Of a DNA stretch of 64,000 bases, positions 17,005 through 64,000 are shown piece by piece. Location: contig AP026538.1 in NCBI GenBank assembly GCA_026075535.2, positions 7,750,001-7,814,000 on the forward strand, in the 5' to 3' direction. Source of the DNA: Tricholoma matsutake. Its lineage: Eukaryota > Basidiomycota > Agaricomycetes > Agaricales > Tricholomataceae. The position numbers and the translations under genes were made by a program. A model generated the notes under the pieces. The model had not been told where the DNA came from, did no database searches, and worked only from the letters and a program-made list of their open reading frames with translations. Within the stretch, counting starts at the first letter, position 1, and every line of letters starts with the position of its first letter.

Positions 17005-17310
17005 CAACCCCATGAGCAGTTGCTCGTGAGGCTGGGGGCAGGTGGTGCACTGTCATCTCCTATCCCTGCACCTAGGTGTCGTTCCACCCACTATCCACCC
17101 CATGAGCAGTTGCTTGTGAGGCTGGGGGTGGGTGGCTTGTCATTGTTGTCGTTCCACCCACAATCCACCCCATGAGCAGTTGCTCATGAGGCTGGGGGTG
17201 GGTGGTGCATTGTCGTCATCTCCTTCCCTGCATCTGGGCATTGTTCCACCCATGTTCCACCCCACAAGCAGTTGCTCATGAGGCTGGGGGTGGGTGGCTT
17301 GTCATCGTTC
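17005..17310. repeat. Dimeric tandem array of GAGC hairpins
   Basis: Four CATGAGCAGTTGCTCATG-type hairpins start at about 17011, 17101, 17171 and 17263, so spacings alternate 90, 70 and 92 bp. Each is followed by AGGCTGGGGGTGGGTGG. Long and short units alternate, a two-monomer higher-order repeat. Confidence 0.85.
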
Positions 17311-18572: not shown

Positions 18573-19129
18573 TGTAAGGGCAACCTTACAATCAGAGTCC
18601 TAAGAACTCGATACTTGCAAGGGAAAACCAAAGTTTAGATTCAATAACTATTGAACAAGGAAAAGACCCATACCTTGCAAGGGAAAACCAAAGAGAAAAC
18701 TCTAAGGAGTCCAGTGCAAGGCCAAAGTATATATATGGAAGGCATGCGACATTCTAAAATACTTGGAGCCCCTTCCATCCTAGCACTAATTCAGATCCAG
18801 GGTCGTGTTCCCATTTGGGGAGATGGCCATCAATCAGTGATAGTGTCTGCATCAGGCCATACTCGGTAAGTGGTGTCCGCATCAGGCCATGATTGGTAAT
18901 GGGCATGCGAAGACATCCTCGATCATTTCCGCAGGGGTATTGACTGCGAGAATGGCAAGAGTACAATAGGGGCTGATGGATCAACATATCGGAATGTTTG
19001 TAGATGGTTGGCACAAGAGGCACCTCATTGCGCAAAAGGCGCTTTGTTGTGCGAACATTTGTGGGTGTGTGGAAACATTCACAAATGTGCACCAACCATT
19101 GTAGGGGCTCGTAAGGTGTTCCCCTTACA
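18573..19129 (-). repeat. Gypsy-3 3' LTR (557 bp)
   Basis: Plus-strand ends TGTAAGGGCAACC and GTTCCCCTTACA. It contains two CCTTGCAAGGGAAAACCAAAG-type repeats. It is 77 bp shorter than its partner at 32087-32720, mainly because it lacks a roughly 60-bp CACAA-rich stretch. Confidence 0.92.
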
Positions 19130-19140
19130 TCACCCCCCCT
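19130..19140 (-). promoter_or_regulatory. Gypsy-3 polypurine tract
   Basis: AAGGGGGGTGA on the minus strand directly upstream of the 3' LTR. Confidence 0.8.
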
Positions 19141-19190
19141 TAAGGCGCAGCATCCCGATGCGCAAAGTTCCATTGGTGTGGATATCGTGG

Positions 19191-19496
19191 TCAGAATCCC
19201 ATCTGTCCAAAGGTAAGTGCATTAACACATTTTGGGGCATTTGGATGAGCCCTATAGAAGTTTGCAATTAGTTTTGTGGCATTGAGATCCTCTGGAATCC
19301 AGGAATTCTCTTCATGTCCATAACCTCTCCATCTGACCAGATACTGCAACTTCCTACCCTTCATCCTGCTGTCCAGCACCTCATCCACCTCATACCTCTC
19401 CTCTCCTCCTATGATCTTGGGGGGCGGTGGTGGTTTTGCATGGCAACCTTCAATTGGGTCCATTGGCACGGGCATGAGCTTGACGATGTGGAACAC
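19191..19496 (-). pseudogene. Gypsy-3 chromodomain tail
   Basis: Reads FHIVKLMPVPMDPIEG, then the chromodomain ERYEVDEVLDSRM...YLVRWRGYGHEENSWIPE, ending ALTFGQMGF and a stop. This is the C-terminal targeting module of chromovirus integrase. It is continuous in phase with the integrase C-terminus (19757-19506) apart from one stop. Confidence 0.88.
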
Positions 19497-19505
19497 CGGA
19501 TGTAT

Positions 19506-21392
19506 TCAAGCCATCAATGGTGGCAGTTGGAGGTGATATGCATGCGAGCTGACAGGACGAATGACTGGGTATGGCCCCAGGAAGCGCTGCGCAAATTTCT
19601 TCATGGGTCTAGTTGTGCTGATATCCGAAGCATCCAGGAAGACCTTTTTGTCGATTGCAAAAATTGGTGCAGGGATTTGCCATTGGTTATAGTACCTCGC
19701 CATATCATCCTTCGATTTGGCAAGGGCGGCACGAGCCTTCTCCAACGTTGACTTCATCTGATTTGCAAGCTCGTTGACTGCCTCAAGCCTTGAGGGTCAT
19801 TGGTTGGGCTCAAAACCCATCTGCAGATGTCTGCCAGTGTCAATGAAGAAGGGGGAGTGCTGGGTGGATGAGTGGACATGGTTATTGTATGCAAATTTGC
19901 CCAGAGGGAGCAGAGTGTCCCAATCATTTTGGTGCTCATTCACAAAAATGTGGATGTACTGCTTGAGCTCTTGATTGACTCATTTGGTCTGCCCATCGGA
20001 CTGTGGGTGATATGCTGTGGATGCCGAAATGGTGATCCCCAACAAGCAATACAATTCTCGCATGAATTGCACTATGAACTGTGGTCCCCGATCTGAGAGC
20101 ATTGATTTCGGGAGGCCATGAAGCTTCCACATGTTCTGCAAGTACAATCGCGCCAATCCCAGCGCTGTAACAGTGGTGTGAGTGGGTATGTAATGGCGGG
20201 GCTTGCTCACTGAGTCTACCACCACCATCGTCGCATCGAAGCCATGGGAGTCCAGAAGTTCAGTGATGAAATCAACACTTACCACATCCCAGCAATTTTC
20301 GGGGATTGAGAGGGGGTGTAGTTCACTGAAAGGTCGGCACTTCTGCGCCTTTGTGTGAAGACACAGATCGTAGGCCTTACAGTACTGACCAACAAAGCGC
20401 AACATGTTTGGCCACCAGTAATTGCACGAGATGAGTTCAAGTGTTTTCCAGCATCCCACATGTCCACCAATCTTGGAGTCATGATGCTGTTCAGCAATTC
20501 TGCGTCGTAAGTCTGGTATGAGCGGAACATAAATGCGATCACGAAACCTCCATAATCCATCCTCCTCTGTCCACTCCAAGCTTTGCAATGTCTTGCCCTT
20601 GGCCCTATCCAACTCCTTCATTGCTAGTACCACTGCATCTTTGCTCTTTCCATCCCGAACCCCCTTTCGCACTTCATGCAAGATATTTTGCTCCACTCCT
20701 TCGATCATCACCCCTTCGAGTGCGTGAATCGTGAAGAATTTGGGGTGGAGCAGGGTAGTGTCGCAATTATCATCTGCACCATTCGCATGATCGGCTTGTC
20801 GCGAAAGCGCATTGCACTTACCCATACTCTTTCCAGGATGGTGGTGCATGACAAAGTTGAACCATGAAAGATAGAGCAACCAGTGAGCTTGTCTGCAATT
20901 TAGCTTTTTTGTGGTCATGAAGTACTCCAGATTTTTGTGGTCAGTCCAGATCTCTACCTTGTGCTGCACACCTTCAAGGAAATGCCTCCATTCCTCTAAT
21001 GATCTCATCACTGCTAGCATCTCCTTGTCGTGGATCTTGTAATTTCGTTTGACTGCATTGAGCAATTTTGAGTAGAACACGATAGGGTGCCATTTGAGAT
21101 CGTCGGCCGATTGCTGCAACAGCACTGAGCTGGTCGCATAGTCCAAGCTGTCTGCCTCAATGCGAAATGCTTTGGTGTCATCAGCAAAATGGAGAATAGG
21201 GGAGGATGTGACCTGATTCTTGATTTTGTCAAAGGCGCCTTGTTCTGAAGGTCTCCATTCCCATTTGTCCTCCTTCTTTGTGAGCTCAAAGAGGGGCTTC
21301 GCATGATGTGAAAAGTCTTCGATGAAGCACCGATAGAAATTTGTGAACCCCAGGAATGACTGTACCTCCATGCGCATTTTGGGGGTGGCCAT
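19506..21392 (-). pseudogene. Gypsy-3 RNase H and integrase
   Basis: The longest intact stretch, 470 codons from 21392 to 19980, runs from the RT connection (QSFLGFTNFYRCF) through RNase H (EADSLDYATSSVLL, HDKEMLAVMRSLEEW, EIWTDHKNLEYFM) to integrase: zinc-binding H...H and C...C, core DFITELLDSHGFDA, DRGPQF and the HPQSDGQTK region. A TGA after GQTK and another after FEPNQ interrupt the end; 19757-19506 supplies the integrase C-terminal part (MKSTLEKARAALAKSKDDM). Both stops sit where relatives have Arg, consistent with CGA to TGA. Confidence 0.9.
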
Positions 21393-22450
21393 TCAGTGAC
21401 TCCTGCTACCTTGACGGGATCCATATGAATTTCACCCTTGGATATGATGAGTCCGAGGTACTCAATCATTGTTTGCTCAAACTCACACTTGTCATGTCGC
21501 AGAAACAACTTGTGTGCACAAAGGCACTCCAGGACAAGGCACATAATGCACTGATGTTCATTGATTGATTTCGTAAAGATGAGGATGTCATCCAGGTAGA
21601 CACAGACCACTCCTTCTATAATGAGATCCTGAAAAATGTTGTTCATCATCATTTGGAATGTGGAAGGGGAGTTTGTGAGTCTGAAAAACATCACCAAGGG
21701 TTTGAAAAGCCCATGATTCATGCAAAAAGCAGCTTTCCATTCATCACCCCTTTTCATGCACACATTGTTGCACCCCCATCGCACATCGAGTTTTGTAAAG
21801 TATTTTGCGCCTTGTAGTTGATTTACCAGTTCCAAAATCAGTGGTAGCGGATATCAGTTTTTGATCGTGAGGGCATTGAGAGCATGGTAATCTTGTACAA
21901 GCCGGAGGGATCCATCCTTCTTCTTGATAAAGAAGATGGGGGATGCCATCGGTGACTTCGAGGGGCAAATGTGGCCAGTGGCTAGGTTCTCCTGGATGAA
22001 TTCGTCCATCTTGGCCTGCTCGTTGGGCACGAGGGGGTAGACCTTGCAGCTAGCAGCTTTTGCACCAGGGATGAGTTCAATCGCATTATCCCATACCTTT
22101 CGGTCAGGCAAGCAGTCAAATGAAGACTTTGCGAATAGGTCCTTGAACTCGTAGAAGTGCGCAGGGATGGATTCGTGAAAGGACTTTGGTTGTGCATTCT
22201 TATGGAAGGCCTCTGCTAGCCATTGTGAAATGTTGGATGTGGTGTGAATGAATTCCGCTTTGCAGGGAATGGTAGCGATGAAGATGCGATCTCCCTCTTT
22301 GACCGAGTTTTTGCTTGAAAGGGGCAGTTCATCATGGTCTTTGTCATTGTTATCATCATTCACCAGTTGTGGAAGGTCTGGGATGTCCTCCATCTCAACA
22401 TCAGGGGTAGGCATGGGACCCGCACAACAGGTATGAATGCTAGCAATTTC
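21393..22450 (-). pseudogene. Gypsy-3 reverse transcriptase
   Basis: Begins with the acidic linker DVEMEDIPDLPQL (about 22410) and FIQENLATGHI, passes [16 protein letters not shown] and FTKLDVRWGCNNV, and includes the catalytic CVYLDDILIF near 21600. Breaks: a stop after ALTIKN at 21854 and a frameshift near 21375, where the sequence WPPP is followed by the out-of-frame remainder. Confidence 0.88.
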
Positions 22451-22513
22451 CTGAAAAGCGCTTTTGTGCTCTTTATTTGTCTTGTTCTGACAGGTGCAGC
22501 AGTGATTCGGGCA

Positions 22514-24083
22514 TCAACTCATTTTGACCTCATTAGTTTGCCAGTCCACCTCAGGATTATGCTTGTGGAGCCAGGTGAGGCCAAGAATAACATCTTGCTT
22601 GCTGATGCCAGTCACTGCAAACATTGCATGTTCAGAGTGGTCATGAAATTGTAGTAGGACCTCTACAACTTCCAAGATATCGCCTGCTTTGTTCACTGAG
22701 CCATCAACATTGAACACAGGGATGGGTCAGCTGAGCGCTTTTGTTGCGAGGTGATTTTGCACAATGAAATCAGAACTGATGAAAAGGCTGGTGGCACCAC
22801 AATCAAGTAGCGCCTTGGTTGTGTGCACAGCGCCGGTATCAGTGGTATGCAGTGATACTTTGAGCTCAAACGAGTGGGGGCTTGGGGTCGCCGCTATGAC
22901 ATAGTGGTTGGGGAGTTGTTTCTCCCATTTAGGGTGCTTACAAAAATGTGAACGAGGATAGGGAGGGGTTAGTACAGCTTGCGCATTGTTCACAGAGAGA
23001 TCAGTCAATGAAATAGAATTTGATTCATACACTTCATCTACTGACAACACTGCAAAAATCCTCCTTTACTTCTACAATGGGCTCCTCGTTCCTCTCATTT
23101 GTGTCATTCACATCCAGCACTGCAAATTCCTCCTGCGCAAAATTGTGTCACTCTTCACCATCCATGTACCGAATGTCAAACCATCTTGGGCATTCAGGTC
23201 ATGTATGACCAGATTCTCCGCAACAAAAGCAGATGAGCACAGATCTGTCCTTTGGTTTACTGGGTGTGGAGACACTTTGTGCCAAAGGTGTGTATCGCGA
23301 TGGGGCAGTTGTGTGCGAAATCAGGGGGAGGGGCCGCGCCATGGTGGGAATGAGCTTGTGGAACATGTTCCCCGGCTGCAAGCTGGTTTCAGATCGTGAG
23401 GCCATTCGCGAAGACGTGCAAAAAGCCTCATTTGCAATGCAATTTTCATTGCAGACAATAGCAGCATTGTACCATTGCTTGGGGGTGTTATCCAAAGGTC
23501 GTCCAGTGGTGAGACAGGCAACATGGTCTTGGATCTTTGCGTTGAGACCTTGTTGGAATTTGAGGATGATATGCGAGACCTCGAAGTACTGCGCTCACTC
23601 TACCAGTTCACAAAAGTCATTGATGTACTCGTCAATGGTTCATGTACCTTGGAAGTACTTCACAGTCTCAAGCTTGGTCCACAAAGACTGGATCTTGTTC
23701 TTCAGACAGAACTCATTCATGAATTCATCCGCAAAATTGGAGTAGGAGGTGTAGGGGAGTCTTCTGCTTAGTTGGTAGTTGCACATGAGATGATCCACAA
23801 ACTGTGCAGCTCATCTGCCCTTCATGAATGAGAGGGCCCACATAATCTGCACATGCTCATCCACAAATTGATGAGGAGTGAGGGCAAAATAGAGTGTGCA
23901 TGAATTCAGGAATGCTCATCCCTGTGAACGATCACCCAAAAAGTCTGTGGGGTTTGCAGGCTTGGGGCGGTAATCTCGCGATGATGTTTCGCAATAGATT
24001 TTGTGAACTACTGGGCCAGGAGACCCTAGGTCTGTGGGGTTGGAGATGCTCAGAAGCACCTGTGGCTCTTTGTGGTCCGCTTC
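22514..24083 (-). pseudogene. Gypsy-3 gag C-terminus and protease
   Basis: Contains gag to a CCHC knuckle, CFCCGESGHT*PEC, near 23240-23195 (TGA in the place of Arg), the junction VLSVDEVYESNSISLTD (23050), the protease ALLDCGATSLF (Cys replaces the usual Ser of DSG) and ISKQDVILGLTWLHKHNPEVDW. It is joined across Gypsy-4 to the gag start at 31929-31843. Confidence 0.82.
24079..24083. repeat. Target duplication, left (Gypsy-4)
   Basis: GCTTC, identical to 31838-31842. Confidence 0.9.
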
Positions 24084-24793
24084 TGTTAAGAACTGATCCT
24101 AGAGGCCACTTTGGAATCCGACCGGACACTGTGGGTGATGATAGCGGGAGATTGTCAGGTCGATGTGGATTCTGCGGGAGGGGAAATGGATAGGACTTGG
24201 CTTCAGCTTGTAAGAAGCTGCACCCTTCACCTCGTCTGGTGTCCTAATTTCAAGTTGAAGGTCTGGAGGTAGGAGCGGGAAAGTGCAGGTAAATGCGGGG
24301 AGGAGTACGGGGGGACTTAGGTTAAGTTCAGATGAGACTAGAACTTCAGAGGGAGACTAGAGGTTGAGTCAAATGGAGTTCAGACTCTTAGAGGACAGAG
24401 GTTGGAGTAGAAGGAGGGTTTAGATTGGCAGGGTAAAGTCGAGTCTATGTCAATATATGAACTGAGGAATACAAGGCAAAACTAGCTAAACTTAAATACT
24501 AGAGTCCAGAATAAAAGTGGGATGGAAACAGGAACTGCGGCAGTGTCTCGACTGTGTAGATAAATTACCTAGCGGAGGCCACACAGGAATCCATAGTTGA
24601 ATTTGCAAAACTAGACAGCAGCCTTGGGAAGGCAGCCGTGGGTGCTGTACAAGGCAGCCTGGTGCACAGCAGTGTGGGCAGTGCAAGGCAGCCGGGAACG
24701 AAATTGGGAGGAGTAGACAAATGTCAGGTTAGACATGCGGGAAAGAGTCAAATGGAATCCAGGTTCCGATTGGGCGAGGAACAGTTCTTGACA
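24084..24793 (-). repeat. Gypsy-4 3' LTR (710 bp)
   Basis: Plus-strand ends TGTTAAGAACTGATCC and CAGTTCTTGACA. Nearly identical to 31138-31837 over most of its length; the few differences seen are largely C/T or G/A, for example CCGACCGG against CCAACCAG. Confidence 0.93.
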
Positions 24794-24927
24794 GTATTTC
24801 CCCCTTAGTGCTGAGCCTACGAGGCACGTGAGGGTTTGTATCTGAATGAGGAAGTTGGTTGAAAATTCCAGATGCAGCAATTGGTTGAAAAATTTTGTTG
24901 ACTTCCTACTCCCATCACCTATGCAAA

Positions 24928-25916
24928 ATGTCCCCCCCAGCAGGTTCTGCTCAACTCAAGCTGGTCGCAATGAAGGCTCAGTATGAACAGAGGGAGCGGG
25001 AGATGAAAGAGCAGATGGAACGGGAGGTGAGGGAACTGGAGGAGGCAGCAAGGGAGGAGGAGCGTTGGGTGCAGGAGGTGCAGAAGGCAGCAGAGGAGGC
25101 TGCGAAGGCGGAGGAGGCACGCCAGGCAGCGGTGCAGAGAAAGGAGGCTTCGGCTGCAAAACAAGCGGAGAAAAAGTGGGCGGCTGTGGCCGCGGGTCTG
25201 GAGGATGATGCAGAGGGGAGGAAGTCCCCAAAGAAGAAGAAAGTCGCCAAGTCCACGGTGCGAGTGGGGTCAGAGGAGTTGCAGAGTCCAGTGCAGGTGC
25301 AGGCCGCGTTGCCTTGCAAAAGGTGTGTACTGGTTTCCTTTCTCCGTCTTCTCTTACTGACAAGTGGCCCAGATGCAAATATCAAAAGGTCTCATGTTTC
25401 AAGATGGGTGCGAAGGGACGTGTGTGCGACAACTGCATGCACGTCAAACATAAGTGCGAGGAGGTAGTGTGGGAGGGGCAGGAAACCCCTGCAGAAAAAA
25501 CAGTGGGAACGACAGGGGTGACCAGGGATAACCCCGAGGTAATGCAACAAATGATGAAGGTGATAAGGAAGGGATTCGCTGAGGTGGCCAATGTGGTGCG
25601 GGAGTTGATGGAAGAGATCCAGGATGCTTTGGACCCAGAGTGGGTGGAGGAAGAAAGTGCCAAGGAGGAGAGCGACGAGGGTGACGAAGAGGTTGAGCGA
25701 GCGGTGCAAGAGTCCCAGCAGGAAAGATGTGGGATCCGCAAGTCTGGAGATGACTGGGCAGCCTTCCAGAGGTATCTGGAGAAAAGGCAGGCAGATGATG
25801 GGGAGGAGAGTGAGAGTGGAGGTGAGGAGGGTGAAGAGAAGGACGAGGGCAGAGAAGAGGGCGAAGTTGGGGGAGAGGGTGATGAAGACGGAGAGGGAGA
25901 AGCGGAGGTAGTGTAG
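24928..25916 (+). CDS. Antisense accessory gene of Gypsy-4: coiled-coil protein with a Zn2Cys6-type cluster
   Basis: Two exons, 24928-25322 and 25373-25916, joined across a 50-nt intron (donor GTGTGT, branch CTTACTGAC, acceptor CCCAG), give 312 residues. Residues 1-110 are a Glu/Arg/Ala-rich coiled coil followed by a basic KSPKKKKVAK patch that could be a nuclear signal. Across the splice junction lies C-x2-C-x6-C-x9-C-x2-C-x6-C, the spacing of fungal Zn2Cys6 DNA-binding clusters; unspliced, neither frame has all six Cys. The C-terminus is strongly acidic (EEGEVGGEGDEDGEGE type). The ATG lies only 134 bp from the 3' LTR, so an antisense LTR promoter is plausible. It keeps CpG and a CGA codon and has no stop, unlike the pol gene of the same element. 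Function unknown; DNA binding is an inference from the cluster. Confidence 0.75.
25323..25372 (+). other. Intron of the antisense accessory gene (50 nt)
   Basis: GT...AG with a CTGAC branch motif 12-16 nt from the acceptor. The acceptor at 25372 changes frame so that the fourth to sixth cysteines follow the first; an alternative AG at 25364 would keep the first frame and lose the cluster. Confidence 0.7.
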
Positions 25917-26019
25917 GGATCCAGTTGGATCCAAAAAAAAACTTTTCAATGAATTTTGTTTCTGAGTTCAGACTGAGTGAATAAGTAACGTGAATAGACT
26001 TCAAGCGGGTAATGGTCCA

Positions 26020-27153
26020 GGTTTCTGTGGGTAGCGAGTGTGAAAATCCGCAAGGAGTTCTTGGGCGTGGTCAAGCTCCGTAACAGGTAGCCAGGAGGTC
26101 TCCTCATCGGTTCCCTGGTAGCCTTCCCATCGGACGAGGTAGAGAATCTTGCAGCGATGTCGGTTGTCAACTTTGGAGTCGAGGACTTTGGTGATCTCAT
26201 ATTCGAGCTCATCATCGATGGTGATCAGAGGAGGTGGAGGTTGTACTCAATTTGGAATTGTGTTTGGGGAGTGTTTCTCTAGTTGAGAGACATGGAAAAC
26301 AGGGTGAATGGCCCGCATGTGATCTGGGAGCCACAGGGTGACTGAGTGAGTGGCACTGAGTGCCTGGGCAGGCGATGATTTTGAAGGGGCCATGGTGCTT
26401 TTCAGAAAGTTTCTTGGAAGGACAAGTGGTGCAGATATTTTCCGCAGTGACATAGGCAGAGTCACCAATGTTGAAGTCGGGTGCGGGTGCCCAATGTTTG
26501 TCCGCAGGACCTTGATAACACTCTTGAGTGGCCGCAAGCTGTTTCCAAAGCCCCTGATGAAGGTCATCTAAGTCAACGACGAACTCGCGGGCACGCTGTG
26601 AAGCTAAGTCGCATTCTGGAAAGACGGAAATGTTTGGGTGATAGCCTTTGTTGGCAAAGAAAGGGGATACACCTGTAGAGGCGGAAGGAGCATTGTTGTA
26701 GGCAAATTTGCCCAAGGGCAAGAGGTGAGACCAGTCGTCCTGCTGATAGTTGCAGAAGATCCGGAGGTACTGCTCCAAGGTCTGATTTAGTTGTTCTGTC
26801 TGACCATCACCTTGTGGGTGATAACTGGAAGTGAAGTGGATCTGCATGTCGAGCGCTTTTCCAAGGGAGTGGAAGAAATGGGAGACAAACTCGGATCCCC
26901 GGTTGCAAGTGACGTGCGATGGAACACCATGCTTGGAGAAGATGTGGAGGATGAACAGGTTGGCTAGTTCTTGGGCTGTGATTTCATTGACAGTTGGGAT
27001 GAAGATGCCTTGTTTGGTGAGATGGTCAACGATGACCAGGATAGCAGTGTGACCATCAGAGTCAGGTAGTTGCTCAATGAAATCCATGGAGATGGAGTTC
27101 CAAGGTCATTCCGGAACCGGAAGTTGCTTTAGGAATCCGTAGGGCTTGTGTCA
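26020..27153 (-). pseudogene. Gypsy-4 integrase core, C-terminus and chromodomain
   Basis: The integrase core starts in phase after two TGA codons (27153-27151 and 27108-27106, both at expected Arg), then MDFIEQLPDSDGH (catalytic Asp), CNRGSEFVSHFF (second Asp) and HPQGDGQTEQLNQ (Glu). A one-base frameshift near 26365 moves the frame to the C-terminal DHMRAIHPVFHVSQLE. A further TGA (26249-26247) precedes the chromodomain ELEYEITKVLDSKV...YLVRWEGYQGTDEETSW, which ends near 26005. Confidence 0.9.
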
Positions 27154-29640
27154 AGGCAATTTGGATTGCTTACAAGTTGTACAGGATCTGCAGAATTCCT
27201 GCACAAAGGTGTGGAGGTTTGGCCAAACATATTCCCGGCAGACAAGCTGCTGGGTTTTATTTTGTCCAAAGTGGCCAGAGAGGATGTGATCGTGTTTGTA
27301 CTGAAGGACCTTGAGGCAAAGATCTGCGACATCTGGAACATAAATCCGGTTGAAGTGGCAGAGGAGACCTGCCTCGTCTATGGTCCAGTTGGGGTCGATA
27401 GGTGTCGGAAGGTGTGCGGATGAAAAGGGGTCAAGAGGTAGGGAGGTGCGGATGTCGTGGTGAAGTTTCTCAACATCCATGATTACTGCTTGTTGAAGGA
27501 TGGGTGTGGCGAAATAGGTGGCACAAAGGGAAGAGGTGAGCTGTTCCTGTGTGAATACAGGTCGGAAGTTGGTTGGGTTTATGGAGGTGAAGTCGCTATT
27601 TCCCCCTTTGCGGTAGACATCCCAACGTCTAGTGAGTGCATCTGGCTTGGCCCCTAATTTTCCGGGGCAGAAGCGGATGATGAGATTGAACTGGGAAAGG
27701 TACTCAGACCAACGGGCCTGGCGGTGGGTGAGCAACTTGGTAGTGCTGAAGTACTCAAGATTTTTGTGGTCAGTGACCACATCAACCGGGTTTGCGGAAC
27801 CCTCAAAGTACTGCCACCAGTGTTTGAAGGCTTCAAAGATGGCCAAGAGTTCCTTGTCATGGGTGTCATAATTTAGTTCAGCAGGATTAAAGGAGCGGGA
27901 GTTAAAAGTGACCAGATGGATTTCTCCATCCGTAGTGTAAACCAAAAGGATTGCTGCTAGGGCATAGTTGGAAGCGTCGGTTTCAAGTACCATTTGTGAG
28001 TCAGGTACCCATTGCGTTAAGATGGGGGCGTGGGTGAATTCTTGTTTGAGCTTTTCAAAAGTGTCGCGGCACTTCTTGTTGAAGTCCCATGGTGCAGATT
28101 TCTGCGTCAAGCGGGTGAGTGGGATGACAATGTCTGAATAGCAGTTAATGAAGCGGCGGTAAAAGTTGCAAAAGCCTAAGAAGGATTGGATATCCTTAAC
28201 TTTCCTAGGCTCGGGCCAGTCAAGCACGGTTTTGACTTTATCCTTGGGCATCCGCAGTCCATCCGGTGAAAGGATGAAACCTAAATATTCGACGGTGTCT
28301 TTGTGGAACTCACATTTCTGTGGAGAGGCATAAAGTCCATTTTTCTGGAGACAGTGGAGGACTTCTTTGACGTGAGCCCCATGCTGGGACTTGTCATTGG
28401 AATAGATTAGGATGTCGTCGAGGTATACGATGACACAAACATCCAGCATGTCACTGAAGATGTCATTCATAAACCGCTGGAAGGCAGTGGGTGCATTAGT
28501 GAGTCCAAAGGGAACCACCAACCACTCGAAGGATCCATAGCGGGTGCGAAAAGTAGTTTTCCACTCATCACCATCAGCAATGCGGACTAGGTGATAAGTG
28601 TGCCGCAAGTCTATTTTGGTGAATAAGCAGGCTTTGCGGGGAGAGTCAAGGAGGTCAGAAATGAGAGGAAGTGGGTAGCGGTCTTTCTTTGTAAGGCGAT
28701 TAAGTCCTCGGTAGTCGACACAAAGTTGGAGACTACCGTCCTTCTTCTTGATGAAGAGAATTGGAGCGCCATGCAGAGACTTGGATGGGCGGATGAAACC
28801 TGAGCAGACGTTTTCGTCAATAAAGACTTGTAAGGCTTCTAATTCAGAGGGGGAGAGAGAATACATGCGGCCCAGAGGCGGAGGAGTATTGTCTTCTGTC
28901 TCTATCTTGAGGTCGTAAGACCGATGTGGAGGAAGGGTATCCGCTTTAGTCTTATTAAAGACATCAGCAAATTTGTGATACTCAGGTTGAATATCAGAGA
29001 GGTCGGATGAGTTAGCGGATTGGGTGGAGCGGGCAGATAACCCTTCTGGAGCAAAAGTCATCTGAAAAGCTACTGCCCCAGGAAGTTTGCTAGCATGCAC
29101 ATAAGCGGCAGCATTGATGAAGGAGATGTCAGGGGTTGTAAATTTAGGAGGAATGGGGGTTTCGGAAAGTGTGGAGGAGTCAAGGATTTCTACCAGAAGA
29201 TTTGGGGACAAAGGTGACGTCAGGGGTGCTGGACCTCTATGATCTGCAGAGCAGAAAGCGAGTTGGCTTGAAGACCAGTCAATCAATGGATTGTATTGCT
29301 TCAGCCAGTTATGACCAAGTATGGCGGAACAGGAAGAGTCGAGCGAGGTTACATAAAATGACAAATTGAATACTTCGCCTGCAGGGAAGGTGACCAGAAG
29401 TTTGACGATCTGAGTTATGGTGGAGTTGCAAGATCCATCAAAGAGTCATAAACCGATCAGGTTAATGGATTCCATGCTGAGTTGGTTATTCAACATGAAA
29501 GAGGAGTCAAGGAAGCAGTGGGAGGAGCCAGAGTCGATAAGGGTTTGGAAAGGGGCGGAAGAGTCAGGAAAGGTTAAAAGAATGGTTAGGGAGTCAGGGT
29601 CGGAAAGAGCGGACACGTTGAGATGAATGTAGGCAGCCAA
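27151..29640 (-). pseudogene. Gypsy-4 protease, RT, RNase H and integrase zinc domain
   Basis: A 737-codon stretch (29364-27151) carries the protease end (ILGHNWLKQYNPLIDW), RT with LCVDYRGLNRL, FTKIDLRHTYHLVRI and the catalytic VIVYLDDILIY, the connection QSFLGFCNFYRRF, RNase H (LETDASNYALAAIL, HDKELLAIFEAFKHW, VTDHKNLEYF) and integrase H...H/C...C (HDHILSGHFG, CRSCTTC). The protease start with DSGSSHC lies upstream at 29640-29449, separated by one TGA (29448-29446) in the stretch INLIGL*LFDGSCN. The same TGA is found in Gypsy-6 (61806-61808). Confidence 0.92.
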
Positions 29641-29696
29641 GTGGGTAAGGTCAACGCAACCCCCAGCCCCAATGGCTGTATCCTGAGGGTTGCGGA

Positions 29697-30964
29697 CTAT
29701 TTTTCCGAGTCCGTAGTCTCAGGAACGACAGTGGATGCACGGGCTTTTGTGGCTTTGGATTTCGGGCAGTTTCCTGCTATGTGCCCTTCCTCACCGCAGT
29801 AGAGACAAAGTTGTTCTCTCATGCGATGTTCTTGTTCCTCCCCAGTCAGCTTGCCGTTCTTCCCCAACTTATCGGAGATGGACAACTTGGGCTTGTCCTG
29901 GGAAGTGTTTTTTGTCATGGAAGACTGCTGGTTGGAGGTGTTACCGCAGGCAGAGTTTGAAGAGGCTTGGTTTGTTGACGGGGAAGGGCTTTTGGAAGTG
30001 TCCTTTCGACGAGAGTCAGTGATGTTACTGGAATTCTTTGTTTTGAAACAGGATTCATCTTCTTGCATCCAGTAGATGTCATCACTGTCCTGTGCTTTCA
30101 AGCGCAGCTCTGCAAGAGTGTTGGGTTTACCACCCCAGAGTACTTCTATGCGAAGCTGGAGCGGAAGACCGCAGAAATAGCAGTCATGAAGTGCTGCTTC
30201 GTTCCAGTTGACCCTAGAAGCTAATTCCCAGAAGTCAACATTATATTTCATGATACGACCACCTTTCTTCATTGCTAAATCAGAGAGAGCTTTCTCTGCA
30301 TCTCCAACTGGGTTGTGCAGGCCGAAGTTACTTTCCAGCTTGGTGAGGAAAGCCTCATAGTCCCACATCCAGTGTGTGGAATCTGTTGGGTCATTAAGAC
30401 CAGGCTCAAACCAACTGAGAGCTGATCCTTTAAGATAAGAAAGGATAAATATGATCTTTTTCTCACCAGAGGAAAATACGTGTGGGCGGTCGCGGAAATG
30501 AAGATTACACGAGACTAGAAAGTCTCTAAGTTTCTTTGGGTTGGAGCCATTGAAAGTGTCGGGGTCGCAAACTTTGATTTTCTCGGTCTTGGGTGCATTG
30601 TTTTGTCGGAGGGTGCAGATACTCTCCGAGAGGTTGTAAAGAACATCTATGAACCTATCCCCTGGATCAGGGTTTTCCCCCGCGGGAGGTTGATCGTCAG
30701 GATCATTGGGATCGGGGTCACCCCCAGGGTGTCCAGACCACTAGGGTCATCAGGTCCGCCGGGAGGTCCGTCCTCTAGACCACGATCTTCCAACCCATAG
30801 GGTTCAGGCTGGTTGATGCCCCTTACATACTCGAGGGGAGTTCTTGATCGAAAATCTTCTGGGTTGCTGGAAGGTTGCGGGGCACAGGTGGACATGAGAT
30901 TGGCACTGATTGAGGGGGCTCCTGAGCCAATTTGTTGGAATATGTTTGAGGGTCTAGAAGACAC
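29697..30964 (-). pseudogene. Gypsy-4 gag
   Basis: The N-terminal part (MSSRPSNIFQQIG...GLEDGPPGG, 30964 on) is acidic and Pro-rich. A one-base deletion near 30735, relative to Gypsy-6, shifts the frame. Downstream the capsid-like region (VCDPDTF...KKLRDFLVSCNLHF, WFEPGLND, WDYEAFLTKLESNFG) is open to the CCHC knuckle CLYCGEEGHIAGNC and a stop at 29697. The knuckle is intact. Confidence 0.88.
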
Positions 30965-31137
30965 TCCAAAAGTAGTGGCAGGTCAAGGGTCGGAAAGGGT
31001 GGATCGCTGGATTGCAGAGATCCCTGGAATAGTACCGGCGCATTGGGAATTTCTTGTTGTGGGCTGGCAGGTCTCGGTAGGGGTCATAGAGAGGAAATGG
31101 ACAAGTGAAGTGTGAGTTTGTATATACTGTTAAGAAC

Positions 31138-31837
31138 TGATCCTAGAGGCCGCTTTGGAATCCAACCAGACACTGCAGGTGATGATAGCTGGAGATTGTT
31201 GGGTCGATGCGGATTCTGCGGGAGGGGAAATGGATAGGACTTGGCTTCAGCTTGTAAGAAGCTGCACCCTTCACCTCATCTGGTGTCCTAATTTCAAGTT
31301 GAAGGTCTGGAGGTAGGAGCGGGAAAGTGCAGGTAAATGCGGGGAGGAGTACGGGGGGACTTAGGTTAAGTTCAGATGAGACTAGAACTTCAGAGGGAGA
31401 CTAGAGGTTGAGTCAAATGGAGTTCAGACTCTTAGAGGACAGAGGTTGGAGTAGAAGGAGGGTTTAGATTGGCAGGGTAAAGTCGAGTCTATGTCAATAT
31501 ATGAACTGAGGAATACAAGGCAAAACTAGCTAAACTTAAATACTAGAGTCCAGAATAAAAGTGGGATGGAAACAGGAACTGCGGCAGTGTCTCGACTGTG
31601 TAGATAAATTACCTAGCGGAGGCCACACAGGAATCCATAGTTGAATTTGCAAAACTAGACAGCAGCCTTGGGAAGGCAGCCATGGGTGCTGTACAAGGCA
31701 GCCTGGTGCACAGCAGTGTGGGCAGTGCAAGGTGGCCAGGAACGAAATTGGGAGGAGTAGACAAATGTCAGGTTAGACGTGCAGGAAAGAGTCAGACAGA
31801 ATGTGGGTTCCGATCAGGCGAGGAACGGTTCTTGACA
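31138..31837 (-). repeat. Gypsy-4 5' LTR (700 bp)
   Basis: Partner of 24084-24793. The sequence inside it (minus strand GTATATACAAACTCACAC) does not start with the usual TGG of a tRNA primer site. Confidence 0.93.
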
Positions 31838-31842
31838 GCTTC
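31838..31842. repeat. Target duplication, right (Gypsy-4)
   Basis: GCTTC, partner of 24079-24083. Confidence 0.9.
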
Positions 31843-32086
31843 TCATTGCGCAAATACTGCCATAGTCTGTACAAGGCCTGCAATGCTCGCTTCAATGTGC
31901 TGGAGGTGGTCCTCATTGTCTGTTTCCATGGGAAGGTTGGTAGTTGGCGGAAGAGTCAAGTGGAGGGATGATAGCAAAGCTTTCCAAAGTCACAAAGCAG
32001 GTGCAAAAATGTGCAAAATCTTTGTAAACTAAGTCGCTGGCTGTGGTAACCTACTACCTTCAGTCCACTAAAGAGAGAGTTTTCTT
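31843..32086 (-). pseudogene. Gypsy-3 leader and gag start
   Basis: Minus-strand ATG at 31929 opens METDNEDHLQHIEASIAGLVQTMAVFAQ and reaches a TGA at the Gypsy-4 insertion point; beyond Gypsy-4 the frame continues EADHKEPQVLLS. Upstream lies a 157-nt leader to the 5' LTR with no TGG-type primer site. Confidence 0.8.
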
Positions 32087-32720
32087 CTGTAATGGCAACC
32101 TTACAATCAGAGTCCTAAGAACTTGATACTTGCAAGGGAAAACCAAAGTTTAGATTCAATAACTATTGAACAAGGAAAAGACCCATACCTTGCAAGGGAA
32201 AACCAAAGAGAGAACTCTAAGGAGTCCAGTGCAAGGCTGAAGTATATATATGGAAGGCATGTGACATTCTAAAATACTTGGAGCCCCTTCCATCCTAGCA
32301 CTAATTCAGATCCAGGGTCGTGTTCCCATTTGGGGAGATGGCCATCAATCAGTGATAGTGTCTGCATCAGGCCATACTCGGTAAGTGGTGGCATCAGGCC
32401 ATGATTGGTAATGGGCATGCGAAGACATCCTTGATCATTTCCACAGGCACAATGATTGCGCAACTGGTTTGCACAAATGCACAAACTGCGACAACAGTTT
32501 GTGCAGGGGTATTGACTATGAGAATGGCGAGAGTACAATAGGGGCTGATGGATCGACATATTGGAATGTTTGTAGATGGTTGGCGCAAAAGGCGCCTTGT
32601 TGTGCAAAAGGCGCTTTGTTGCATGAAAGGCACTTTGTTGCACGAACGTTTGTGGGTGTGTGGAAACATTCGCAAATGTGCACCAACCATTGTAGGGGCT
32701 TGTAAGGTGTTCCCCTTACA
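32087..32720 (-). repeat. Gypsy-3 5' LTR (634 bp)
   Basis: Plus-strand ends TGTAATGGCAACC and GTTCCCCTTACA. Flanked outside by the CTCAC duplication at 32721-32725. Confidence 0.92.
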
Positions 32721-61599: not shown

Positions 61600-64000
61600 G
61601 GGGGTTGCATTGACCTTACCCATTTGGCTGCCTACGTTCATCTCGATGCATCTGCTCTTTCCAACCCCGACTACCTAACCATTCTTTTAACCCTTCCACT
61701 CCTGTCTGAACCCTTATTGACTCTGGCTCCTCCCACTGCTTCCTTGACTCCTCTTTCATGTTGGATAACCAACTCAGCATGGAATCCATTAACCCAATTG
61801 GTCTATGACTCTTTGATGGATCTTGCAACTCCACCATAACTCAGGTCATCAAACTTCTGGTCACCTTCCCTGCTGGTGAAGTGTTCAATTTGTCATTCTA
61901 GGTAACCTCGCTCGACCCTTCCTGTTCCGCCGTACTTGGTCATAACTGGCTGAAGCAATACAATCTGTTGATTGACTGGTCTTCAAGCCAACTCACTTTC
62001 TGCTCCACAGATCATAGAGGTCCAGCACCCCTGACGTCACCCCGAACCTTCCAGTAGAGATCCTCGAATCCTCTGCACTTTCAGAACCCCCATTCCTCCT
62101 AAGTTTACACCTCCTGACATCTCTTTCATCAATGCTGCTGCTTATGCATGTGCTAGCAAACTTCCTGGGGCAGTAGTTTTTCAGATGACCTTTGCTCCAG
62201 AAGGGTTATCCACCTGCTCCGCCCAACCCGCTAACTCATCCAACATTTCCAATATTCCACCTGAGTATCATGAATTTGCTGATGTCTTTAATAAGACTAA
62301 AGCGGATGCCCTTCCTCTGCATCAGTCCAAGATAGAGACAGAAGACAATGCTCCTCCACCTCTGGGCCGCATGTATTCTCTCTCCCCCTCTGAATTAGAA
62401 GCCTTATGAGTCTTTATTGATGAAAACATCTGCTCAGGCTTCATCCACCCATCCAAGTCCCCGCACAGTGCTCCAATTCTCTTCATCAAGAAAAAGGATG
62501 GTAGTCTCTGACTTTGCATCGACTACTGAGGCCTCAACTGTCTCATGAAGAAGGACCGCTACCCACTCCCACTCATTTCTGACCTCCTTGACTCCCCCTG
62601 AAAAGCCCACTTATTCACCAAGATAGACTTGCAGCACACTTATCACCTAGTCTGCATTGCAGATGGTGACATGTGGAAAACCACTTTCTGCACCCGCTAC
62701 AGATCCTTTGAGTGGTTGGTTCCCTTTGGACTCACTAATGCACCCACAGCTTTCCAGTGGTTTATATAAGGGCAACCTAAGCCTCTAGCAAAGGGAAATC
62801 CGAAGTTAAAATTATACTACATAATACAGGCATTGGGGACACACCTAGCAAAGAGAAATCCAAAGAGAAAACTCTAAGGATCCCCTTGCTGATGCCCAGT
62901 ATATGTGAAGACAACAAAAATCAAATATAACCTAAAGATAGAAAAAGGCGGAGATAGGTGGATCAAGGCTGCCGAATGACATCATACCAAGGGGTATGTG
63001 TTGGAAGGGGTACTCTGCCTCTAAATATAAAAGTGTCAACATGTACAAACATGATAGCAAGGGAAAATTAGTAATAAAATCCGGAAAAATCATAGAAAAT
63101 GAAGAATAGAAGGAAATGAGGTGGGGAAAAATATAGGACAAACATAAAAAATAGGAAAAACACACAGGGCACCCCCCTAGTCCCCTTACAGTTTATTAAT
63201 GACATCTTCAGTGACATGCTGGATGTTTGTGTCATTGTGTACCTTGACGACATCCTAATCTACTCCGACGACAAGTCCCAGCATGGGGCTCATGTCAAAG
63301 AAGTCCTCCGCCGCCTCTGGCAGAATGGACTTTATGCTTCACCACAGAAATGTGAGTTCCACAAAGACACCATTGATTATCTAGGCTTCATCCTTTCACT
63401 GGATGGACTATGGATGTCAGAGGACAAAGTCAAAACCGTGCTCGACTGGCCCCAGCCTAGGAAAGTCAAGGATATACAATCCTTCTTAGGCTTCTGCAAC
63501 TTTTACCGCTGTTTCATCAACAGCTACTCCAACATTGTCATTCCACTCACCTGCTTGACACAGAAATCTGCACCCTGGGACTTCAACAAGAAGTGCCATG
63601 ACACTTTTGAAAAGCTCAAACAAGAATTCACTCACACCCCCATCCTAACTCAATGGGTACCTGACTCCCAAATGGTACTTGAAACTGATGCCTCTGACTA
63701 CACCTTAGCAGCTATCCTTTCAGTTTACACTGCGGATGGAGAAATCCATCCAGTCGCTTTTCATTCCCACTCCTTTAATCCTGCTGAACTAAATTATGAC
63801 ACCCATGATAAGGAACTCTTGGCCATTTTCGAAGCCTTCAAACACTGGTGGCAGTATTTTGAGGGTTCCGCAAACCTGGTTGATCACAAAAATCTTGAGT
63901 ACTTCAGCACTACTAAGTTGCTCACCCGCTGCCAGGCCTGTTGGTCTGAATACCTTTCCCAGTTCAATCTTGTCATCCGCTTCTGCCCCAGAAAATTAGG
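61600..64000 (+). pseudogene. Gypsy-6 protease, RT and RNase H start
   Basis: Protease DSGSSHC near 61715-61735, then INPIGL*LFDGSCN with TGA at 61806-61808, the same position as in Gypsy-4. RT contains DGSL*LCIDY*GLNCLMKKDRY (two TGA for Arg or Gln), [19 protein letters not shown] and, after the solo LTR, VIVYLDDILIYSDDKSQHG near 63230-63290. The connection QSFLGFCNFYRCF and RNase H (LETDASDYTLAAIL) follow to the window edge. Confidence 0.88.
62765..63190 (-). repeat. Solo LTR (426 bp) in Gypsy-6 RT, target duplication GTTTA
   Basis: Bounded by GTTTA at 62760-62764 and 63191-63195; removing it with one copy restores FQWFINDIFSDM. Plus-strand ends TATAAGGGCAACC (TG mutated to TA) and TCCCCTTACA. 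It shares the GCAAAGGGAAA...CAAAGAGAAAACTCTAAGGA layout of the Gypsy-3 LTR, so it is a minus-oriented LTR of a related chromovirus left after LTR-LTR recombination. Confidence 0.9.

Follow-up and report, generated by a model that had tools for sequence, protein, structure and literature searches.

The stretch of DNA analysed here, referred to as the window, comprises 64,000 nucleotides of the Tricholoma matsutake genome (contig C1, positions 7,750,001 to 7,814,000), and the whole genome, 161,040,721 bases in 13 contigs, was searched along with it. On the minus strand of the window lies a Ty3/gypsy element with long terminal repeats (LTRs), called Gypsy-4 (24084-31837, 7,754 nt), and inside this element an additional gene (24928-25916) lies on the plus strand, antisense to gag-pol. 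This gene belongs to the Gypsy-4 family as a whole, and purifying selection acts on its codons, with a ratio of nonsynonymous to synonymous distance (dN/dS) like that of pol.

The gene fills the space between the stop codon following the chromodomain (26003-26001) and the edge of the 3' LTR (24793). Its ATG, at 24928, is 134 nt away from the LTR and its stop codon, TAG, is at 25914-25916. Removal of a 50-nt GT-AG intron (25323-25372), which includes a CTRAY branch-like motif ahead of the acceptor, joins exon 1 (24928-25322) to exon 2 (25373-25916) and yields a product of 312 amino acids. Exon 1 encodes an N-terminal part rich in Ala, Glu, Arg and Lys, the basic stretch KSPKKKKVAK and the first of six clustered cysteines, and exon 2 encodes the other five, a middle part and an acidic C-terminal tail. 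Residues 96-128 include eight Lys or Arg and three Asp or Glu, and 35 of the 87 residues of the tail (226-312) are Asp or Glu. The cysteines (codons 130-160, at 25315-25457) are spaced as C130-x2-C133-x6-C140-x9-C150-x2-C153-x6-C160, with C130 in exon 1 and C133 onward in exon 2. Because the intron splits codon 132, this motif exists only after splicing. A preliminary description of the window had reported a two-exon antisense gene of 312 codons next to the 3' LTR, the cysteine cluster of which is formed by removal of a 50-nt intron, and it proved accurate in all of these points. The interval between the ATG and the 3' LTR (24794-24927, 134 nt) could contain a promoter or the 5' untranslated region. 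In 20 copies, the 100 nt upstream of the ATG diverge by 0.089, less than a 400-nt part of their 3' LTRs (0.122). This is a weak sign of a promoter, as the purine-rich tract of the element (24806-24797) also lies in the interval and these 100 nt diverge more, by 0.137, when the set is widened to 47 copies.

The host element is bounded by two LTRs of 710 nt on the minus strand (5' LTR, 31128-31837; 3' LTR, 24084-24793) with TG...CA ends, and it is flanked by the target site duplication GAAGC (24079-24083 on the 3' side and 31838-31842 on the 5' side). Between the LTRs, all on the minus strand, are a Gag segment (29700-30740) that resembles the Ty3 capsid and has a zinc knuckle scoring below its cut-off, a segment for reverse transcriptase, RNase H and the zinc-binding part of integrase (27151-29445) that ends at an in-frame TGA, an integrase core segment (26215-27105; PF00665, E 1e-6, 29.4 bits, slightly below the cut-off of 32.6) bounded by an in-frame TGA at 27108-27106, and the end of pol with the chromodomain (26001-26246; PF00385, E 8.7e-9). 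Ty3_capsid, RVT_1, RT_RNaseH, Integrase_H2C2 and Chromo are matched above the Pfam cut-offs, and rve slightly below. These matches to Ty3 capsid, reverse transcriptase, RNase H, integrase and chromodomain, in the gypsy domain order with the chromodomain at the C-terminus and together with the TG...CA LTR pair and the short target site duplication, identify the element as a chromovirus. Its pol is broken, as had been noted before: three in-frame TGA codons (29448, 27153 and 27108), rather than the four or more stated earlier, cut through the segments that Pfam recognises, and the chromodomain lies in another frame. An abundant gypsy-group element of T. matsutake, marY1, is described as 6,047 bp long with LTRs of 426 bp (PMC10211490). 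It shares the host and the gypsy group with the window element (7,754 nt, LTRs of 710), but by its description it differs in size and LTR length and is therefore probably another family.

Is the antisense gene a feature of the family or a single insertion? Two samples of copies were used. A search with the gene as query gave 633 candidates, of which the best 40 were scored as copies, a selection made by likeness to the window gene. The other sample is independent of the gene and consists of all 36 exact matches on contigs C1 and C2 to a 32-nt chromodomain word at the end of pol; an exact match to this word favours better-preserved copies. With three or fewer mismatches allowed, the same word has 477 matches in the genome. 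A second word, also of 32 nt and placed at the sixth cysteine, has 414 genome-wide, and neither word has any match when reversed. The gene is present at 31 of the 36 chromodomain places (19 by alignment, 12 by the sixth-cysteine word only), a remnant is found at three, and two have none. Twenty of these places had the gene nearby in existing copy lists (8 aligned, 12 by the word only), and the 16 others, when fetched, yielded 11 near-complete genes, three internally deleted ones (L055, L057 and L059, left out of the 51-copy counts given below) and two places without the gene (L052 and L063). Thus, the gene is present in most family copies, and a one-off insertion is rejected by this family-wide occurrence at the same place, which answers the check on other copies proposed in the preliminary description. 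In L063, the end of pol runs directly into the sequence beside and in the 3' LTR, and about 1.1 kb including the gene is missing. In L057 (C2:5312205-5313705), an in-frame internal deletion has removed the basic stretch, the intron and the entire cysteine cluster, leaving 174 residues with the start and stop codons kept; to judge from its sequence, a product of this kind, short and lacking the cluster, could hamper the complete protein.

The gene also extends beyond the close relatives of the window copy. A degenerate word designed at the amino acid level has 286 exact matches in the genome and led to more distant lineages, represented by L065, L066, L068 and L071 and by L067, L069, L070 and L072, in which the DNA of the gene is 77-82% identical to that of the window and the divergence of the protein amounts to between a quarter and a third. 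A further element, the Gypsy-6 copy that runs past position 64000 (L064), was suggested earlier as a place to look, and the gene was indeed found there beyond the end of the window, split by an insertion into two pieces of 82% and 76% identity.

The reading frame of the gene is constrained in these copies. Among the 40 copies, the proportions of synonymous (pS) and nonsynonymous (pN) differences in the gene frame are 0.272 and 0.086, giving a pN/pS of 0.32, in comparison with 0.85 and 0.80 in the other two plus frames and 0.52 to 1.01 in the minus frames. Stop codons average 0.8 per copy in the gene frame and 11.9 and 14.1 in the other plus frames. Could the constraint be the shadow of a gene on the sense strand? 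This is rejected, since the minus frames carry 1.6-4.5 stops per copy with ratios of 0.48-1.18 over the sets tried; the ratio of about 0.5 in one of them would be the expected mirror of the coding frame. With transversions only, which avoids most CpG decay, the ratio is 0.30 over 51 copies. Between lineages, where groups A and B are hand-chosen copies with a full frame and D1 and D2 include broken copies, dN/dS of the gene is 0.19-0.23 at dS 0.42-0.82, and the shifted frame gives 0.90-1.09; the corresponding values for a C-terminal piece of integrase in three lineages are 0.16-0.25 and 0.72-1.00. Pol and the gene could be compared directly in 16 of 21 copies, as a complete pol piece fit for use is missing from L012, L015, L017, L023 and L027. 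Codons were read off by aligning each copy to the window gene, with stops and gaps skipped, so that a frameshifted copy is counted by column. For these 16 copies, pN/pS is 0.32 for pol and 0.38 for the gene. By ratio, then, the gene is constrained about as tightly as the enzymes of the element itself, a conservation comparable to that of the other element proteins. The dN/dS check proposed at the outset thus gave a ratio far below 1 that is specific to the frame.

How does an intron persist in an element that replicates through RNA? An intron on the antisense strand survives retrotransposition because it is absent from the genomic RNA strand as an intron, and this explanation, already offered in the preliminary description, fits the presence of the intron in all 51 aligned copies spanning it. 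In these 51 copies, GT is kept in 51, CTRAY in 51 and AG in 49, the two exceptions (L045 and L062) each having lost one base. Exon 1 has a pN/pS of 0.30 (CI 0.23-0.38) in frame and of 0.93 and 0.75 in the shifted frames, and exon 2 has 0.32 (CI 0.25-0.40) in the post-splice frame and 0.85 and 0.89 in the shifted ones. Each exon is thus constrained solely in the frame that splicing joins, and splicing is therefore very probably real, as the frame constraint and the splice sites strongly suggest. The interior of the intron diverges nearly as much as third codon positions (0.151 and 0.173 in 40 copies). Eight distant copies were fetched and seven of them spliced in silico, L072 standing outside this count; their introns measure 48-49 nt, so that the length varies among lineages as 50, 49 and 48 nt. 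Three of the seven are open over the full length and have the cluster. L069, with stops at codon 111 and inside the cluster, and L071, with a stop at codon 254, both have the motif, L067 is frameshifted and L070 is truncated at its 5' end. The family indicates selection that maintains an intron within a retrotransposon, which is permitted by its antisense orientation.

Each cysteine column is kept in 50 or 51 of the 51 copies, neighbouring positions vary, and synonymous changes between TGC and TGT are frequent at C150 and C160; the whole motif is found in 36 of the 40 copies in their own spliced frame. Zn2Cys6 clusters follow the spacing C-x2-C-x6-C-x5-12-C-x2-C-x6-8-C, with which the present cluster agrees. 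Zn_clus (PF00172) is the only Pfam family matching the isolated cluster. A search of a protein database gave no relatives, which has little weight because T. matsutake itself was not found in it and its fungal proteins are presumably few, and in IMG/VR, searched with the exon-2 protein, 39 stretches fit the pattern and none is a relative. We call the cluster Zn2Cys6-like; from its spacing and conservation it is predicted to bind zinc or DNA.

Resident copies of the gene decay in the same way as the rest of the element. A full-length frame is kept in 13 of the 40 copies. In the 16 copies compared, there are 30 stops in 16 x 764 codons of pol, for which the piece of the window was chosen to be free of stops, and 15 in 16 x 312 codons of the gene. 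The commonest stops of the gene are TGA at CGA or CAA codons (codon 79 in 16 of 51 copies and codon 112 in 10 of 51), which is a mark of CpG decay. As stated earlier, the window gene does keep CpG and CGA (37 CpG, with CGA at codons 112 and 241), but this is no special preservation, since gene and pol have almost equal observed/expected ratios of CpG (0.60 and 0.61). The ratio of nonsynonymous to synonymous changes is 2.13 for those found in a single copy, 1.23 for those in two copies and 1.15 for those in three or more, the value expected under neutrality, with an assumed weighting of transitions, being 2.58. Single-copy changes are thus near neutral, which means that selection acts mainly on the transposing lineage and not on the resident copy. 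Retention of the window copy at the level of the host is rejected on these grounds, with stop rate and CpG depletion equal to those of pol, and the contrast drawn in the preliminary description between a broken pol and an intact gene does not hold as a sign of special retention.

The LTRs give a similar picture. Among 21 family copies examined, 15 show two long LTRs, and 12 of these have exact 5-nt target duplications. The two LTRs differ by 3.5-7.6% in 14 of the 15 measured copies, with transitions predominating, and in the window copy by 25 of 709 compared positions, 23 of the differences being transitions. The share of transitions ranges from 36 of 36 in L013 down to 40 of 52 in L028. The predominance of transitions, together with stops at CGA codons, points to decay by CpG methylation in T. 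matsutake. In the fifteenth copy, L021, the LTR pair is 12.2% different and the flanks do not match. This copy (C10:2.39 Mb) and L020 (C10:2.43 Mb) are 45 kb apart in opposite orientation and have equal gene identity to the window, equal numbers of stops in the gene and a common 3' flank, but different lesions in pol; duplication or exchange may have been involved. The window element itself appears by eye to be nested in another element (about 18754-24078 and 31843-32600), where broken chromovirus-like pol pieces lie on the minus strand at 19191-22513 and the segment 18754-19221 resembles 32300-32600. Elsewhere in the window, an 85-nt unit occurs at 17063-17309 in three tandem-like copies, 78-85% identical to the first.

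What would the protein do? We regard the gene as probably a standing third gene of a large chromovirus family that encodes a nuclear regulator acting in trans. An outline of the proposed process is as follows. Host RNA polymerase II would transcribe the gene from a promoter on the antisense strand, within or close to the 3' LTR, and the transcript would be spliced and translated into a protein that enters the nucleus, a basic stretch preceding the cluster. The six-cysteine cluster would bind nucleic acid, most likely DNA, and other parts, including the acidic tail, would mediate pairing and contact host factors, so that the protein could adjust the expression or integration of its own element in trans, as HBZ does for human T-cell leukemia virus type 1 (HTLV-1). 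The intron, lying opposite the genomic RNA strand, would escape removal in retrotransposition. In fixed copies the protein would be lost through ordinary CpG decay, and selection would act on the lineage that is still jumping. The question can be tested in this system, which offers codon-level evidence, a strand-specific splicing assay, a possible DNA-binding cluster and hundreds of copies, some of which naturally lack the gene or the cluster while others have them.

Several observations weigh against a regulator of this kind, and the first group of them concerns the class of the cluster. The Zn_clus cut-off of 21 bits is not reached by the window cluster (9.1 and 11.0 bits) or by the clusters of two distant copies (13.9 and 15.1 bits), the Gal4 control scoring 40.1, and in three of the four scanned pieces the best stretch pairs the second half of the cluster with the first half of the profile. 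When the whole protein was compared with Pfam at E up to 1, Zn_clus was not matched, and the only matches, UIM_2 and ZFYVE21_C, are weak and below their cut-offs. A sequence search of the PDB gave five matches at chance level (E 1.5-5.5), none of them a fungal zinc cluster. Most known Zn2Cys6 regulators have the cluster near the N-terminus, unlike the present protein, in which it is central. The score below the cut-off, even though Zn_clus is the sole family matched, is the reason for the label "Zn2Cys6-like" rather than membership of Pfam Zn_clus. Of the earlier assignment to the Zn2Cys6 type, the spacing thus stands and the profile score, 9.1-15.1 bits against 21, does not support it.

The second group concerns the tie between the gene and its element. 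Two family copies (L052 and L063) have no gene and L057 has no cluster, so copies can spread without them. In the same lineages, the absolute distances of the gene are nearly twofold those of the integrase piece, both in dS (0.63-0.75 versus 0.30-0.45) and in dN (0.12-0.16 versus 0.07-0.08); exchange between members, a difference in mutation or alignment errors in repetitive parts could account for this. Moreover, the distances of gene and pol among the 16 copies are uncorrelated (r 0.095, with 1266 of 5000 permutations as high), in a test weakened by the selection of these copies for gene likeness to the window, and strict co-inheritance of the whole element is unsupported. Correlations are 0.61 between chromodomain and exon 1, 0.60 between chromodomain and exon 2 and 0.60 between the two exons, 0.32 between the halves of pol, 0.27 between 3' pol and exon 2 and -0.15 between 5' pol and exon 1. 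Correlation is thus only local along the element, which suggests that family members recombine or switch templates. From these distance correlations, the elements appear to be mosaic; the lack of correlation between the gene and 5' pol reflects either such mosaic elements or parts that differ in mutation or alignment.

Other explanations can be set beside the nuclear regulator. The protein might instead serve the transposition complex, in nuclear import, chromatin targeting or tethering, or the packaging of RNA, without regulating transcription. This would fit the same conservation data, the basic stretch could serve nuclear import, and nuclear entry of the pre-integration complex has been discussed for the antisense genes of plants (PMC7264820). 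The acidic tail and the Zn2Cys6-like spacing, however, look more like those of transcription regulators than of structural proteins. In addition, the enzymes and structural proteins of LTR elements are normally made from the sense RNA. We consider this explanation unlikely, though a serious one.

A role of the antisense transcript as RNA, through silencing by double-stranded RNA or interference with the sense transcript, would make the reading frame incidental. Antisense non-coding transcripts, or roles for them, are described in several LTR elements and retroviruses (PMC7264820, PMC10186651), but the frame constraint and the synonymous changes at cysteines that are kept require a protein. As the sole function, an RNA role is thus largely refuted and highly improbable, and RNA roles may be additional. 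Zinc-cluster regulators are abundant among fungal host genes, and the gene might be a host regulator recently captured by transduction into one or a few copies. Capture of this kind is a known route (PMC7264820). Against a recent event are the presence of the gene at 31 of the 36 family places, its occurrence in lineages up to dS 0.8 apart and the retention of an intron on the antisense strand, which, in a comparison covering the element copies, leave it still less credible than a purely RNA-based role; the gene may derive from an ancient capture of a host gene. Finally, a functionless open frame of low complexity, suggested by the skewed composition (purine-rich, and rich in Glu, Arg and Ala) and by the fairly open minus frame 0 with its 1.6 stops per copy, is refuted as an accident by the frame-specific dN/dS of 0.2-0.3 against controls mostly near 1 and by the conserved splice sites and cysteines, and hardly deserves further credence.

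Antisense genes have been described in other LTR elements. In plant Ty3/gypsy elements, antisense open reading frames (ORFs) between pol and the 3' LTR are known as gene23 of Grande and from RIRE2, Retand (TRP28) and PvRetro13 (PMC7264820, PMC11963269). They resemble the present gene in antisense orientation and position, in occurrence in most copies, in constraint like that of the element proteins and in a predicted DNA-related function, and the gene shares with the class called aORF-3R its antisense place between pol and the 3' LTR. They differ in having plant hosts and domains such as TRP28 and SMC, and Retand belongs to a non-chromovirus lineage; PF04195, the TRP28 domain of Retand, is not matched by the gene product in Pfam at E up to 1. 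The available text of PMC11963269 on Retand uses neither the word zinc nor the word intron, and that of the review PMC7264820 does not use the latter.

Among fungi, the element Boty of Botrytis cinerea has a gene named brtn on its antisense strand (PMC8365987, PMC7264820 and PMC4227169, citing Zhao et al., 2011). The review assigns this gene to the class between pol and the 3' LTR (PMC7264820), and a BRTN-like transcript is mentioned in Monilinia (PMC5987419). Both Boty and the present element are, by description, fungal LTR elements with a chromodomain and an extra antisense gene, the host of Boty being an ascomycete. The earlier statement that no fungal counterpart had been described was thus mistaken as regards the class. 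In addition, some of the elements in a survey of fungal Gypsy that includes Agaricomycetes are marked as having extra ORFs without an assigned function (PMC2864245), and the present gene could, again by description, be related to one of these. In the literature searched, in which subscription journals are thinly covered, no basidiomycete case, selected antisense intron or six-cysteine cluster was found among the antisense genes of LTR elements. The antisense ORF class itself is known, and the present gene is set apart from it by the cluster, by the intron under selection and by a host among the basidiomycetes.

Gal4-type Zn2Cys6 regulators (PF00172) share with the gene product the spacing class, basic residues between the second and third cysteines and a basic stretch before the cluster. 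The present protein differs from them in its score below the Pfam cut-off, its central cluster and its place in a retroelement, and no middle domain of fungal transcription factors was found in it. An analogy of layout and proposed action is offered by HBZ of HTLV-1, the best understood case, an antisense, spliced gene expressed from the 3' LTR, the nuclear product of which lowers sense expression, and by APH-2/3/4 (PMC10186651). HBZ belongs to the bZIP proteins and comes from an infectious retrovirus (PMC10186651), whereas Pfam at E up to 1 shows no bZIP domain in the present product, for which a transcript starting in the 3' LTR is presumed. A bolder proposal, which we advance tentatively and consider somewhat less likely than not, is that the gene is an independent fungal counterpart of HBZ, encoding a DNA-binding zinc-cluster protein that would recognise the LTRs of its element and control in trans how active the hundreds of sister copies are, with its intron kept because no other orientation would survive the RNA cycle. 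By analogy, the gene is on balance best read as encoding a nuclear regulator of the element itself, comparable to HBZ of HTLV-1 or to gene23 of Grande.

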